A DNA stretch of 64,000 nt from Glutamicibacter mishrai (GTDB lineage: Bacteria > Actinomycetota > Actinomycetes > Actinomycetales > Micrococcaceae): contig NZ_CP032549.1 in NCBI RefSeq assembly GCF_012221945.1, positions 1,054,001-1,118,000 on the forward strand, given 5' to 3'. Under the pieces are notes generated by a model. That model did no database searches. It was given only the letters and a program-made list of their open reading frames with translations, and was not told the origin of the DNA. The translations under genes were made by a program, and so were the position numbers. Below, in pieces: positions 3 to 4,410 of this stretch (position 1 is the first letter of the stretch; each line of letters opens with the position of its first letter).

Positions 3-281
3 GCTGTCGCTGACTGGCCGTTGCTCAACGCGCTGACTGCGGCAAGTTCGGGTGCTTCATGGGTTTCAATCCACCACGGTGGCGGAGTCGGAATGGGCCG
101 CTCTATCCATGCGGGTCAGGTATCTCTGGCGGACGGCAGCGAGCTGGCCGCGGCCAAGCTTGAAGCCCTGCTGACTAACGATCCCGGCATGGGAGTTATC
201 CGGCACGTAGATGCCGGCTACGAACGCGCTGAGGAAGTCGCCGCGGAGCGATCCGTGCGCATTCCGATGAAAGGCAAGTAG
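3..281 (+). CDS. hutU: urocanate hydratase, C-terminal fragment
   Basis: The gene runs in from the left edge, so only about the last 92 residues are visible. Urocanase converts urocanate to imidazolonepropionate with a tightly bound NAD+, the second step of histidine degradation in the cytoplasm. The fragment has the family's conserved C-terminal HHGGGVGMG segment followed by the SxHAGQV stretch, and ends in a short basic tail. hutH, the preceding step of the pathway, lies about 2.6 kb downstream on the same strand, and hutG is about 26 kb away, so the pathway is not one compact operon here. Identity is firm; the start is outside the window. Confidence 0.93.
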
Positions 282-292
282 CCATCTCTTGT

Positions 293-338
293 GGTTCGCG
301 TGTAATTCCTGTTCAACAGCCGGCAATGCACGCGAGCC
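293..338 (+). terminator. possible hairpin after hutU
   Basis: A 10-bp stem (293-302 with 329-338, one G-T pair) and a 26-nt loop lie just behind the hutU stop. It has no T run, so it is a weak terminator candidate or a processing hairpin. Confidence 0.3.
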
Positions 339-442
339 CCCTTGATTTGATGCACGAACGGGCGAAAATGGTCACTGACTTGGGTGTCGTAAACGCAATC
401 TTAACGTGACATGGCGACTACCTCGGAGCTTATGATTAAGCC

Positions 443-471
443 TTGTAGGTCATTTTCTGCCTGCATAGCGT
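443..471 (+). promoter_or_regulatory. candidate promoter for the low-complexity protein
   Basis: A TTGTAG hexamer (443-448) is separated by 17 bp from TAGCGT (466-471), 38 bp ahead of the start codon at 509. The spacing fits a housekeeping sigma factor, though both hexamers are imperfect. Confidence 0.4.
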
Positions 472-508
472 GGGTCAAGTCAGGAACGACCGACCCACGG
501 AGGACATC

Positions 509-745
509 ATGTCTGAGCAGGATTCAAACGAGCAGTTCGGAAATTTCGAGAACAGCCAGTCGGAAGAAAACAGCGGCTACGGCTCGTCAAATGACCAGCA
601 GAACAATGAAGGCCAGTCTTACGGCGGTGGCAACGAAGAACAGTCGTACGGTGGCGGCAACGAGCAGTCCAGCCAAGACTCCTTCGGCGGCGGCGACAAC
701 GAAGAGCAGGGCTTCGGCGGTCAGGGACAGAGCGAAGGCTTCTAG
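509..745 (+). CDS. acidic Gly/Ser/Gln/Asn-rich low-complexity protein
   Basis: This 78-residue protein has no family I recognise. It is built from only nine residue types: Met, Ser, Glu, Gln, Asp, Asn, Phe, Gly and Tyr. There are 16 acidic and no basic residues, and no Ala, Leu, Ile, Val, Pro, Thr, Cys, Trp, His, Lys or Arg. Eight aromatics recur mostly every 9-14 residues, several inside S-(Y/F)-G-G-G units; one unit is directly repeated at residues 37-41 and 46-50. Such a composition predicts intrinsic disorder. The ATG is chosen because GGAGGA lies 3-8 nt ahead of it. A strong hairpin follows the stop. It is probably monocistronic and convergent with dps. The function is unknown; the clean gene signals argue that it is real. 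Confidence 0.75.
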   Translation: MSEQDSNEQFGNFENSQSEENSGYGSSNDQQNNEGQSYGGGNEEQSYGGGNEQSSQDSFGGGDNEEQGFGGQGQSEGF

Positions 746-827
746 TCTTCAACGCTATGACTGATCAATGCTCGTAGCATCGGTCCAAAATTCAGCAGCT
801 CCATCTGCTGCAGAATGAAGTCCATAC

Positions 828-875
828 AGAGAAATCGCTGTTCCCCTTCTCAGGAAGGGGAACAGCGATTTCTCT
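828..875. terminator. bidirectional intrinsic terminator
   Basis: A perfect 22-bp stem (828-849 with 854-875) with a TCAG loop lies between the convergent low-complexity gene and dps. It should terminate both. Confidence 0.85.
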
Positions 876-919
876 GCTTTCCGAGTTAGTCATGCAGGAT
901 CAGCGCAATCAATGCCCAT

Positions 920-1429
920 TTATGGTCGTCGCGTTTCAGCACTGATGAACCAAGCCTGTTGCTCCAAGTCGGCAATGTACTGGTGCAAGATATCAGCAGT
1001 TGTGGGATCTTCTTCGTCGACAGGATCGTGCACGTCGCGGATAACACCGACAGTGCTCTGAATCGCCTTGACTACCAGGTCAACGGCATCCGTCGTCAAA
1101 ATCTCGGTAGTGACCGGCTGTTCCAGTTTTGTAAACTCGCTGATCGTCGAAGCTAGTCCGTCAGGTGTGGCGTGCAACGCCCGCATGCGCTCGGCAATTT
1201 CATCCGATCCCTTACGAGCAATGCCAACGATTTCGTCCAGGTTCTGATGCAGGTCCCGGAAATTTGGGCCAACAACGTTCCAATGGATCTGTTTGCCGAC
1301 AAGCTGCAGATCCAGCAGCTGGACGAGCACTGATTGCAGAGAGTCCCTAAGAGTCTGCGATGCGATGAACCCGCGCTCTGCATTTTCTTTCGTCGTTTTC
1401 TTCGCGGTGGTCTTTTTGATGTCCGTCAT
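920..1429 (-). CDS. dps: Dps-family ferroxidase / starvation DNA-protection protein
   Basis: A 169-residue member of the Dps/ferritin-like family, which forms dodecamers that oxidise Fe(II) with peroxide and store it, protecting DNA in stress. The inter-subunit ferroxidase residues are present with the spacing of E. coli Dps: His49 in the QIHW motif, His61, Asp65, Asp76 and Glu80. The N-terminus (about residues 5-18) is rich in Lys and Thr and could bind DNA. ATG at 1429 is preceded by AGGGAG; an upstream in-frame ATG at 1528 lacks a ribosome binding site and would add an atypical 33-residue tail. The gene stands alone, with a shared terminator at its 3' end. Confidence 0.92.
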   Translation of the reverse strand: MTDIKKTTAKKTTKENAERGFIASQTLRDSLQSVLVQLLDLQLVGKQIHWNVVGPNFRDLHQNLDEIVGIARKGSDEIAERMRALHATPDGLASTISEFTKLEQPVTTEILTTDAVDLVVKAIQSTVGVIRDVHDPVDEEDPTTADILHQYIADLEQQAWFISAETRRP

Positions 1430-1584
1430 GACATCTCCCTTGCATTGAAGTTGACGTGGCTGGCATCTGTTGATTTCCGATGCCACTTCTACGCACGCTA
1501 CGTCCGTGCTCGTCCCATGGCGAATCAACTTCTTCTACTGGCAGGGAATGTGCAGGCCACGTACATTCGATGCAAAGGTTACGC

Positions 1585-1618
1585 AACGTTGGCGAGTACA
1601 TCTGTACTCGCCAGCGTT
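1585..1618 (-). terminator. intrinsic terminator of the small membrane gene
   Basis: A 16-bp stem (1585-1600 with 1603-1618, one G-T pair) begins two bases after the stop codon at 1620-1622. Adenines on its minus-strand 5' side supply Ts in the other direction, so it may work both ways. Confidence 0.7.
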
Positions 1619-1619
1619 T

Positions 1620-1847
1620 TTATGCACCTGCGTCGGTGCCACCATGTGGGTGGTCCAACGAAGACGGGCCGACTATCAATCTGAATACTCCCCAGCACAT
1701 GGCCAGGCCGCCCCAAATGATACCGAGCCACATTGGAGTCACACCTTGTACATCATTGCCAGGCGTGACAAGAATGAACAGGAGAAACAAGGCGACGATG
1801 AGTCCGCCGCCAACAACGAGACCTAGTCCGAGAGATTTCTTTGGCAT
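1620..1847 (-). CDS. small two-helix membrane protein, unknown function
   Basis: A 75-residue protein with two predicted membrane helices (about residues 7-28 and 38-60), a short basic N-terminus and a polar tail containing His and Asp. The ATG at 1847 has GGAG 6 nt ahead. A hairpin terminator follows the stop directly, which supports a real single-gene transcript. I do not recognise a family. It lies beside dps on the same strand, but nothing shows that they act together. Confidence 0.6.
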   Translation of the reverse strand: MPKKSLGLGLVVGGGLIVALFLLFILVTPGNDVQGVTPMWLGIIWGGLAMCWGVFRLIVGPSSLDHPHGGTDAGA

Positions 1848-2173
1848 CTTTCACTCCAGCGATTCTTCAACCATGAATGAACCGGCAAGACTAGCGAGTC
1901 GCATTTTCGTCTATCGCTTGCTTGCGAGTCCTCTGACGTTTGGGCCCACATTGCCTCCTCAGTGTGCGCGCTGGCGCACGGTATATCCGTTAGCAACAGG
2001 GTAGGCCTGTTTCGGGCGCAACTCCAGAGCAACCTGACTAGACAATATGCGCCTGGAAGCGGCTATCTCGGCCAGTATTTTCAGCCCGCCGTGCATTTGG
2101 CTTCGCTCCGCAGGAGAATGGTAGGTAGGCTCACACGAGCCTGAGGATAATTTGCCGACACGACAGGATGAAC
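1848..2173. other. intergenic region between divergent genes
   Basis: These 326 bp separate the divergent small membrane gene and lipoprotein gene. Only a short 6-bp GC hairpin (1964-1979) was seen; no convincing gene or operator. Confidence 0.5.
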
Positions 2174-2743
2174 ATGTATTCTCGCCTCGCCAAAAGCTGT
2201 GGGCTAGCGCTCTCGACCGGCCTGATGGTCCTCGCTCTTGCAGGGTGTGTGAGCATCGAGTCCTCCAACGATGAGCAGAGCTCTTCTTCCGCGCCTGCCC
2301 AAAGCGCTACCCCTATCGAAGGCACTGTCACCCCTAGCGCCAAGAACCCTGACGGCGAAGCCACCGGTACTGCGACCGTCCCGAAGGAAACCGCCGCAAA
2401 TTCCTACGATCAGACCTTCCGGACCATTGAATCCAAAGCCACTGAGAAAAAGTGCTCCGGCAAAATGACCATCAGCGGCGATGGAGAGATTCTCAAACTC
2501 ATCGGCAATTGCCAGCAGGTGGAGATTGCCGGAACCGGAAACATGATCATCGGCGGGCGCATCAAAGATCTTTCGATCTCCGGTGCCGGGAATATCGTGG
2601 CCGTTAACAACATCGAGAACGTCAGCGTCAGCGGAGTGGGCAACTCAGTGGCTTGGCGCAACGATAACGCCTCGACAGAAGACGCCGGACAGTCGAACCG
2701 CCTCGGTTCCGATGCTTTGGACGGCGTGGAGTTGGGCTACTAA
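2174..2743 (+). CDS. lipoprotein with DUF3060-type repeats
   Basis: A 189-residue exported lipoprotein: a basic N-terminus, a hydrophobic helix and an LAGC lipobox with the acylated Cys near residue 25. A Ser/Thr/Pro-rich linker of about 50 residues follows, then a C-terminal domain of short Gly-Asn-containing turns (GDGE, GTGN, GAGN, GVGN patterns) typical of the DUF3060 family, which probably forms a small beta-helix on the cell surface. The ATG at 2174 has CAGGA 5 nt ahead; an ATG at 2168 would sit too close to that site. The function is unknown. A palindrome follows the stop and could end the transcript or control hutH. Confidence 0.75.
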   Translation: MYSRLAKSCGLALSTGLMVLALAGCVSIESSNDEQSSSSAPAQSATPIEGTVTPSAKNPDGEATGTATVPKETAANSYDQTFRTIESKATEKKCSGKMTISGDGEILKLIGNCQQVEIAGTGNMIIGGRIKDLSISGAGNIVAVNNIENVSVSGVGNSVAWRNDNASTEDAGQSNRLGSDALDGVELGY

Positions 2744-2756
2744 TTATATGATCTGC

Positions 2757-2778
2757 AGTGTCCGGTATTTCGGACACT
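2757..2778 (+). promoter_or_regulatory. 22-bp palindrome upstream of hutH; candidate hut operator
   Basis: Perfect 8-bp arms (2757-2764 and 2771-2778) flank a GTATTT centre, 90 bp before hutH and 13 bp after the lipoprotein stop. The core TGTCCGGTATTTCGGACA differs at two positions from the core at 27114-27131 upstream of hutG. It could instead be the lipoprotein terminator. Confidence 0.5.
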
Positions 2779-2868
2779 ACACTTTGCTATCTGCCGTCAG
2801 ACCATCCCCGCTGCCGAACAATAGAAGTTAGATACTTCTTAGTTCCGTAGTGATTGGATTTGATTGCC

Positions 2869-4410
2869 ATGGCTTCTGCCCCTCAAGTAACCCTCGGCCT
2901 TAGCGGCGCCAGCGCGGACGACGTTATCGCTGTTGCCCGCCATGAAGCCCAGATCAGCATTTCAACGCAAGTACTTGAGGAGCTCGCTTCAGTCCGTGCC
3001 CACATTGACGCCCTGGCCTCGGCGGATACTCCGGTTTATGGAATTTCGACTGGCTTTGGTGCCCTGGCCACCCGCCATATCGCTCCTGAAGACCGCGCCA
3101 AGCTCCAGCGTTCACTCATCCGATCGCACGCTGCCGGAATGGGCGAACCAGTGGAACGAGAAGTCGTTCGCGCACTGATGTTCTTGCGGGCCAAGACCCT
3201 GGCATCAGGCCGCACCGGCGTACGCCCCGTAGTGTTGGAAACCATGGTTGCGCTGTTGAACGCAGGCATCACCCCGGTCGTTCGTGAATACGGGTCGCTG
3301 GGATGTTCCGGTGATCTCGCCCCGCTCTCGCACTGCGCGCTGGTGCTGATGGGCGAAGGCGAAGCCACCGACCGCCGGGGTGTCCAGCGCCCAGTACCCG
3401 AACTTCTCGCAGAAGCCGGCATCACCCCGGTGGAATTGGCGGAAAAGGAAGGACTGGCACTGGTCAACGGCACCGACGGAATGCTCGGGCAGTTGCTGAT
3501 GGCATTGGTCGATCTGGAAGAGCTCGCCGATATTGCTGACGCCACCGCAGCCATGAGCGTCGAAGCCCAGATGGGCACCGCCCAGGTATTCCGGCCAGAA
3601 CTCCACGAGCCTTTGCGCCCACACCCAGGCCAAGGCTGCAGCGCAGCAAATATGTATGCATTCCTGGCTGAATCCCCCATTGTGAATTCCCACCGCGAGG
3701 GTGATGGACGAGTACAGGATGCCTACTCACTGCGCTGCTCGCCACAGGTCACAGGCGCCGTGCGCGACACCATCGCCCACGCTCGCCTGGTCGCTACCCG
3801 CGAGCTGGCCGCGGCCATCGATAATCCTGTCGTTCTGCCCAGTGGCGAAGTCACCTCGAACGGAAACTTCCACGGCGCCCCCGTGGCCTATGTTTTGGAC
3901 TTCTTGGCCATTGCCGTCGCCGATTTGGGCTCCATCGCCGAACGACGCACGGACCGGATGCTTGATCCTGCACGCTCGCGCGACCTTCCGGCTTTCCTCG
4001 CTGATGATCCCGGAGTGGATTCGGGCATGATGATTGCCCAGTACACCCAGGCCGGGCTGGTTGCGGAGAACAAGCGCCTCGCCGTGCCAGCCAGTGTCGA
4101 TTCCATTCCGTCTTCGGCGATGCAGGAAGACCACGTCTCCCTTGGCTGGCACGCGGCACGCAAGTTGCGAACTTCGGTGGCCAACCTGCGCCGCATCCTC
4201 GCGATTGAAATGCTGATCGCCTCTCGCGCGCTTGATCTCCGTGCTCCGCTTCAGCCTGGTGCAGCCACCGGTGCCGTCCTCGGATTGCTGCGCACCAAGG
4301 TGGCAGGTCCTGGCGAAGACCGTTTCTTGTCCGCTGAATTGGAAGCCGCGTACGAATTGCTGGCTAGCGGCCAAGTCCATCGAGTGCTTGAAGAGCACCT
4401 CCCTGCATAG
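2869..4410 (+). CDS. hutH: histidine ammonia-lyase
   Basis: A 513-residue cytoplasmic enzyme that removes ammonia from L-histidine to give urocanate, the entry step of histidine catabolism and the substrate for hutU at the left edge. Length is normal for the family. The N-terminal YGISTGFG segment carries the catalytic Tyr57. The prosthetic MIO group would form from residues 146-148, read here as Cys-Ser-Gly in a GSLGCSGDLAPL context instead of the textbook Ala-Ser-Gly. The C-terminal SSAMQEDHVS segment is also typical. The ATG at 2869 is chosen; a TTG at 2854 would add five residues with no better ribosome binding site. A palindrome at 2757-2778 may control it. Confidence 0.96.
   Translation: MASAPQVTLGLSGASADDVIAVARHEAQISISTQVLEELASVRAHIDALASADTPVYGISTGFGALATRHIAPEDRAKLQRSLIRSHAAGMGEPVEREVVRALMFLRAKTLASGRTGVRPVVLETMVALLNAGITPVVREYGSLGCSGDLAPLSHCALVLMGEGEATDRRGVQRPVPELLAEAGITPVELAEKEGLALVNGTDGMLGQLLMALVDLEELADIADATAAMSVEAQMGTAQVFRPELHEPLRPHPGQGCSAANMYAFLAESPIVNSHREGDGRVQDAYSLRCSPQVTGAVRDTIAHARLVATRELAAAIDNPVVLPSGEVTSNGNFHGAPVAYVLDFLAIAVADLGSIAERRTDRMLDPARSRDLPAFLADDPGVDSGMMIAQYTQAGLVAENKRLAVPASVDSIPSSAMQEDHVSLGWHAARKLRTSVANLRRILAIEMLIASRALDLRAPLQPGAATGAVLGLLRTKVAGPGEDRFLSAELEAAYELLASGQVHRVLEEHLPA

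Follow-up and report, generated by a model that had tools for sequence, protein, structure and literature searches.

The 64,000-nucleotide stretch of Glutamicibacter mishrai DNA analysed here (the window) contains an open reading frame of such narrow composition (Table 1) that the question arose of whether it is a gene at all and, if so, what kind of protein it encodes. Translation and composition agreed with the initial annotation of this ORF. The 78-residue protein is built from 9 residue types, with 16 acidic and no basic residues, no Ala, Ile, Leu or Val, and 8 aromatic residues at positions 10, 13, 24, 38, 47, 59, 69 and 78, that is, with gaps of 3, 11, 14, 9, 12, 10 and 9 residues. The six frames of the 64 kb hold 35,652 stop-free segments of 78 residues; 5 of these had at most 11 residue types and neither Lys nor Arg, and all 5 overlap ORF 509-745. 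An aliphatic stretch suiting a signal peptide or membrane anchor was absent from the 78-residue protein, and a search of its own genome gave no paralogue at E-values up to 10 (3 candidates scored). Open frames were not used as evidence for a gene. Of the 12 homologues, 10 have no stop in the +1 frame and 8 have none in one antisense frame, but a stop in the +1 frame needs a codon with T in the middle that ends in A or G, and therefore openness of the +1 frame is a by-product of the composition.

Table 1 Features of the acidic gene and its surroundings, in positions of the window
Feature	Position	Strand	Basis and remarks
Promoter-like hexamers TTGTAG / TAGCGT, spacing 17	443..471	+	Seen by eye; TAGC shared by all 12 upstream regions
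Leader element including the ribosome binding site	479..504	+	26 bases; before this gene in 11 of 18 genomes
Acidic disordered protein gene	509..745	+	78 residues, stop codon included; translation, homologues, selection on the frame
Conserved N-terminal motif, residues 1-13	509..547	+	Invariant residues (8 rows), low pN
Variable repeat tract with evenly spaced Tyr/Phe	548..700	+	Whole-codon length changes, spacing; right border approximate
C-terminal stretch, acidic-Gly/Glu-Phe end in most copies	701..742	+	Alignments; absent in the G002 branch and G010
23-bp stem-loop, terminator-like without U tract	827..876		Fold; between the convergent acidic gene and dps
Dps/ferritin-like neighbour with lysine-rich N-terminus	920..1429	-	Pfam Ferritin; best NCBIfam match Dps
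75-residue ORF	1620-1847	-	No Pfam or NCBIfam match

A search with the single sequence found the gene in 8 of the 18 Glutamicibacter genomes, its own and a remnant in G015 included; an eight-sequence profile found it in 11 of 18, and the copy in G010 was added by reading the gene context. Altogether, the gene or a remnant is present in 13 of the 18 genomes, intact and with an ATG in 9 (G000, which is the window genome, G001, G002, G004, G006, G011, G013, G014 and G016) and damaged in 4. The copy in G007 has an internal TAG and that in G015 has lost its 5' half by deletion. G012 has ATA (L057:6118-6120, minus strand) and G010 has ACG (L066:8154-8156, minus strand) at the start position, the rest of the ORF being open in both; standing behind an intact GGAGGA, these codons mean either that the start was lost recently or that an unusual start codon is used. 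In G003, G005, G008, G009 and G017 no copy was found by the profile, by the leader pattern described below or by composition around dps. The initial annotation had suggested a search for homologues in Micrococcaceae, and homologues do exist, but they were found in Glutamicibacter only and not in the wider family. The profile gave no convincing relative in the 277 genomes which, with the 18 of Glutamicibacter, make up the Micrococcaceae set of 295; the two weak matches in other genera (E-values of 0.016 and 0.042) lie in open frames of 802 and 441 residues and were taken as compositional. In a sample of 297 genomes of the order a match was seen in one, the window's own genome. Scanning species genomes for the pattern [AS]N[EK]QFGN[FS] yielded 63 stretches, of which 5 were confirmed as relatives, all assigned to Glutamicibacter by their names or because they are identical to genomes of that genus. 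Three protein-database searches, which may miss distant relatives, listed at least 1, at least 20 and 19 matches, and the organism-named ones among the matches listed (6 of 20 and 5 of 19) were all from Glutamicibacter. One listed protein of G. arilaitensis (P0019, 29 contigs) follows the G001 protein to residue 51 and continues with unrelated residues, as it might if the repeat tract had undergone a change out of frame. Comparison with curated families gave no match in Pfam, none in NCBIfam (three members) and none among PDB sequences at E-values up to 10. The protein is a new family, and a search of the literature on Glutamicibacter, bacterial low-complexity proteins and Dps found no paper on it among the titles and opening parts of abstracts.

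The alignments of these copies carry the evidence for the reading frame. M1, S2, E3, Q4, N7, Q9, F10, G11, N12 and F13 are invariant in all 8 rows of alignment A1, with S replacing F at residue 13 in some database proteins. Codons 2-13, which read roughly MSEQDANEQFGNF, are held at the protein level: pN did not exceed 0.13 in any of the 66 pairs and pS reached at least 0.5 in 35 of them, counts that are small with about 6 synonymous sites per pair, and in the close pairs G000-G013 and G013-G014 pN exceeded pS. For the rest of the gene, dN/dS amounted to 0.13-0.16 between the window copy and G006, G013 and G014, to 0.34 in the gap-free pair G002-G012 and to 0.24-0.60 in seven other pairs, and was undefined for G004-G016 with zero synonymous changes; values across the repeats are biased downwards because the alignment was guided by the protein. 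In nucleotide alignments of ten pairs, gaps were all multiples of three in 7 and absent in 2, G011-G016 with gaps of 2 and 28 being the exception. Differences at the first, second and third codon position numbered 219, 205 and 324 over ten overlapping pairs, a modest excess at the third position that was not seen for G000-G001 (32, 31 and 29). These findings show that the reading frame is under selection, and from the comparison of sequences we conclude that ORF 509-745 is a real protein-coding gene. Lack of homologues and lack of selection on the frame had been named at the outset as results that would speak against it; neither was observed.

The damaged copies bear on how important the gene is. 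In a dps tree of 17 genomes, weakly supported and without G003, G007 groups with G004 and G016, whose copies are intact, and G015 is sister to the window genome; therefore, these two losses, at least, look separate. Since damage has occurred in separate lineages the gene is dispensable, and damage in several genomes means that any benefit is conditional. It also argues against an important role in stress, such as the stress or desiccation factor first envisaged. A more radical reading, which we consider unlikely, is that of a once useful orphan that has little function today and is being lost by drift in most lineages. The TAG in G007, the 5' deletion in G015, the ATA and ACG codons of G012 and G010, the 5 genomes of 18 without a copy and the midway departure of P0019 from the family sequence would all be expected from such drift; codon-level conservation between the intact copies and retention of the leader would not, and the gap-free pair G002-G012 shows selection despite the ATA start in G012.

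The signals around the gene were inspected next to the coding sequence. The ribosome binding site that had been noted, GGAGGA at 499-504, is indeed there, four bases ahead of the ATG. The proposed promoter held up in part: two hexamers can be read by eye and the TAGC of the -10 hexamer occurs unchanged in all 12 upstream regions aligned, but none was returned by a scan with the sigma-70 consensus. The pattern of the leader element had a single match in each of 11 genomes out of 18, each time at the acidic gene, and none in the control; as it was derived from these same sequences, what is informative is that it matched nowhere else. G001 and G010 are missed by the pattern owing to small indels, which shift the frame upstream of the ATG, and the element is therefore kept as DNA or RNA and not as protein. 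In G002 and G012, where the acidic gene sits at a second locus, the leader has moved with it. A function as regulon site was considered and rejected, since a related pattern, allowing up to 3 mismatches, occurred 39 times in the genome and its reversed control 125 times; with one mismatch, it matched in the genome only at the acidic gene. Rejected, too, was a leader hairpin (GUGGGUC/GACCCAC), which folds in the window (z -2.5) and beats slid versions; over the 12 upstream regions 0 of 5 measures exceeded the shuffles, 107 to 362 of 500 shuffles reaching the observed values. Downstream, the terminator stem described initially as 22 bp is present as a perfect 23-bp stem (-44.6 kcal/mol, z -10.2), but it has no U tract and was not listed by a terminator scan, whose one terminator-like site lies elsewhere on the minus strand. 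In relatives, long stems of other sequence seem, by eye, to follow the acidic gene.

Among the homologues the whole protein ranges from 76 to 157 residues and its middle grows and shrinks in whole codons, with a tendency to retain the first 12 or so residues and the regular placing of aromatics. In 10 of 10 homologues tested the aromatics after residue 13 were more evenly placed than in shuffled sequences (20,000 shuffles; a fraction of 0.0091 down to 0 equalled or surpassed the observed evenness), although these tests are not independent, the sequences being related and the repeats inheriting their spacing; G002 and G012, a branch which lost most aromatics and kept 4 and 3, were dropped from the 12 sequences as having too few. 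Even spacing persists where the repeat units differ (G010, G011 and G014), and no other finding favours a sticker-and-spacer reading as strongly. On a charge-hydropathy plot, all 12 sequences lie on the disordered side of the dividing line, and AlphaFold2, run on the 12 aligned sequences, gave a mean pLDDT of 54.8, a pTM of 0.13 and no secondary structure, with the highest pLDDT (63) in the first ten residues. The chain is thus predicted by two methods to be disordered, in support of the first reading. Net charge amounts to about -0.2 per residue (-0.15 to -0.26 over 12 sequences), with 0 to 7 basic residues per chain; the charged fraction, nearly all negative, is 0.21 in the window protein (0.19-0.31 over 12) and Gln plus Asn make up 28% (17-30% over 12). 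The product, known so far only from Glutamicibacter, is a small and strongly acidic protein, predicted to be disordered.

These properties bear on the first reading of the protein as a prion-like, condensing domain. With prion-like domains of the FUS/hnRNPA1 type it shares Gly/Ser/Gln/Asn spacers and evenly placed Tyr and Phe; unlike them it is strongly negative, has no cations in the window copy, is short, lacks a folded or RNA-binding domain and belongs to an orphan family of bacteria. Of two hallmarks of prion-like domains, evenly spaced aromatics were thus found in all sequences tested, 2 of the 12 having been dropped, but few charged residues were not. Contacts between Tyr and Phe residues could let the chain condense on its own, for instance when its negative charge is screened in a crowded, dry or salty cell. 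In the parts covered of PMC10491635, prion-like domains are described with Gly as a condensation-favouring spacer and with uniform stickers, which matches the protein, and the same source and the parts covered of PMC11820118 state that a higher net charge weakens their condensates. With its net charge and few basic residues, a chain as short as 78 residues with 8 aromatics, only 4 and 3 of them left in G002 and G012, and a spacing statistic shared through descent, such condensation is rather improbable. The even aromatics of the first reading stood, and self-condensation was weakened: by analogy it is possible but would be disfavoured by charge.

Two other known systems were compared. Original criteria for hydrophilins, in the parts covered of PMC4190154, are Gly above 6%, GRAVY below -1 and a mean hydrophilicity above 1; the hydrophilin pool given there spans hydrophilicity values from -0.3 to 1, with up to 16.8% Gly, and therefore the mean-hydrophilicity criterion itself is unsettled. 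Like hydrophilins and LEA-like stress proteins, the acidic protein is small and predicted to be disordered, with 23.1% Gly (8.5-23.1% over 12) and a GRAVY of -1.78 (-1.49 to -1.81 over 12), below the limit of -1. Unlike them, it matches no sequence family and its mean hydrophilicity, from Hopp-Woods values, is 0.46 (0.36-0.73 over 12) and thus below 1. With two of three original numerical criteria on the hydrophilin side and the third not, it was not filed as a hydrophilin. The C-terminal tail of bacterial SSB is likewise a Gly/Gln-rich chain with an acidic end and, as in most copies of our protein, a final Phe, and a free mimic of this tail was considered. SSB of this genome ends with GADEPPF and most copies of the protein with EGF or EEF, but the Pro-Phe tip is lacking, the final Phe is missing in some copies (the G002 branch mostly ends with DS and G010 with GN), and neither a Pfam match to the OB-fold domain of SSB nor an AlphaFold2-predicted fold was found in the acidic protein; we regard such mimicry as very improbable.

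The gene had also been linked to its neighbour dps. The protein encoded at 920..1429 matched Pfam Ferritin at 68.5 bits over cut-off, and its best NCBIfam match, Dps, was below the cut-off of that model. In 11 of the 13 genomes that have the gene or what remains of it, dps lies within 1.5 kb and always in the hutU-hutH interval. Gene and dps converge in G000, G006, G013, G014 and G015 and diverge in G001, G004, G007, G011 and G016; in G010 they are 1.4 kb apart with a 75-residue ORF between them. In G002 and G012 the gene is found outside the hut interval, about 22 and 205 kb from dps, at sites similar to each other, near acyltransferase-SGNH and DUF3618 genes in G002 and near GGDEF and BrkB genes in G012. 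The hut interval (window 3-4410) is a spot of turnover: dps is found on either side of the acidic gene depending on the species, and the presence of dps, the 75-residue ORF and a DUF3060 protein between hutU and hutH varies. The protein could be a polyanionic modulator that competes with DNA for the lysine-rich tail of Dps, a doubtful proposal that draws on the proximity in 11 of 13 genomes, on the start of this genome's Dps (MTDIKKTTAKKTTKENAERG) and on the 16 acidic and 0 basic residues of the window protein. However, all 11 close pairs share one hutU-hutH interval and the other two are far apart, dps is present in 18 of 18 Glutamicibacter genomes, and Dps with a basic N-terminus is seen both in genomes that carry the gene and in genomes that do not. 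Broken in 2 of 13 genomes, the association suggests a common locus more than a partnership, and the proposed link to dps was weakened. The word Dps is absent from the parts covered of the G. arilaitensis Re117 genome paper (PMC2991359). The neighbours also bear on a precursor of a ribosomally made, modified peptide, with a leader followed by repeated core units. A conserved N-terminus followed by variable repeats would suit such a precursor, but among 14 flanking proteins (5 of them without a family) no peptide-modifying enzyme was found, the families being urocanase, ferritin-like Dps and DUF3060 in the window and acyltransferase-SGNH, DUF3618, SRP54 GTPase, GGDEF and BrkB around the G002 and G012 copies; this, too, is most unlikely.

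In sum, the simplest account, which we favour tentatively, would be a soluble, acidic disordered protein, restricted to one genus and tuned by its repeats, with a partner-docking N-terminal motif and a polyanionic, weakly sticky tail. The N-terminal residues would act as a short linear motif for binding the partner; the acidic Gly/Ser/Gln/Asn tract, with its Tyr and Phe residues, would form a hydrated tail that may shield or tether the docked partner. The protein would then be a conditional helper that probably forms no droplets by itself. Selection, predicted disorder, a leader element found only at the acidic gene and the lack of an anchor stretch support this docking model; damage in 4 of 13 copies and the 5 of 18 genomes without a copy count against it. 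A possible but less probable reading is a free-standing bacterial sticker-and-spacer protein whose client is addressed by the N-terminal motif, with repeats that tune valence between species and selection that keeps the aromatics even and the chain nearly free of basic residues. To our knowledge, bacterial low-complexity proteins that stand alone, with no folded domain, have seldom been described. If the reading holds true, Glutamicibacter would offer a natural series of lengths (76 to 157 residues) carrying 8 to 15 aromatics, completed by an aromatic-poor branch and by natural knockouts in sister species, and thus a ready set to test the effect of aromatic number and spacing inside a bacterial cell.
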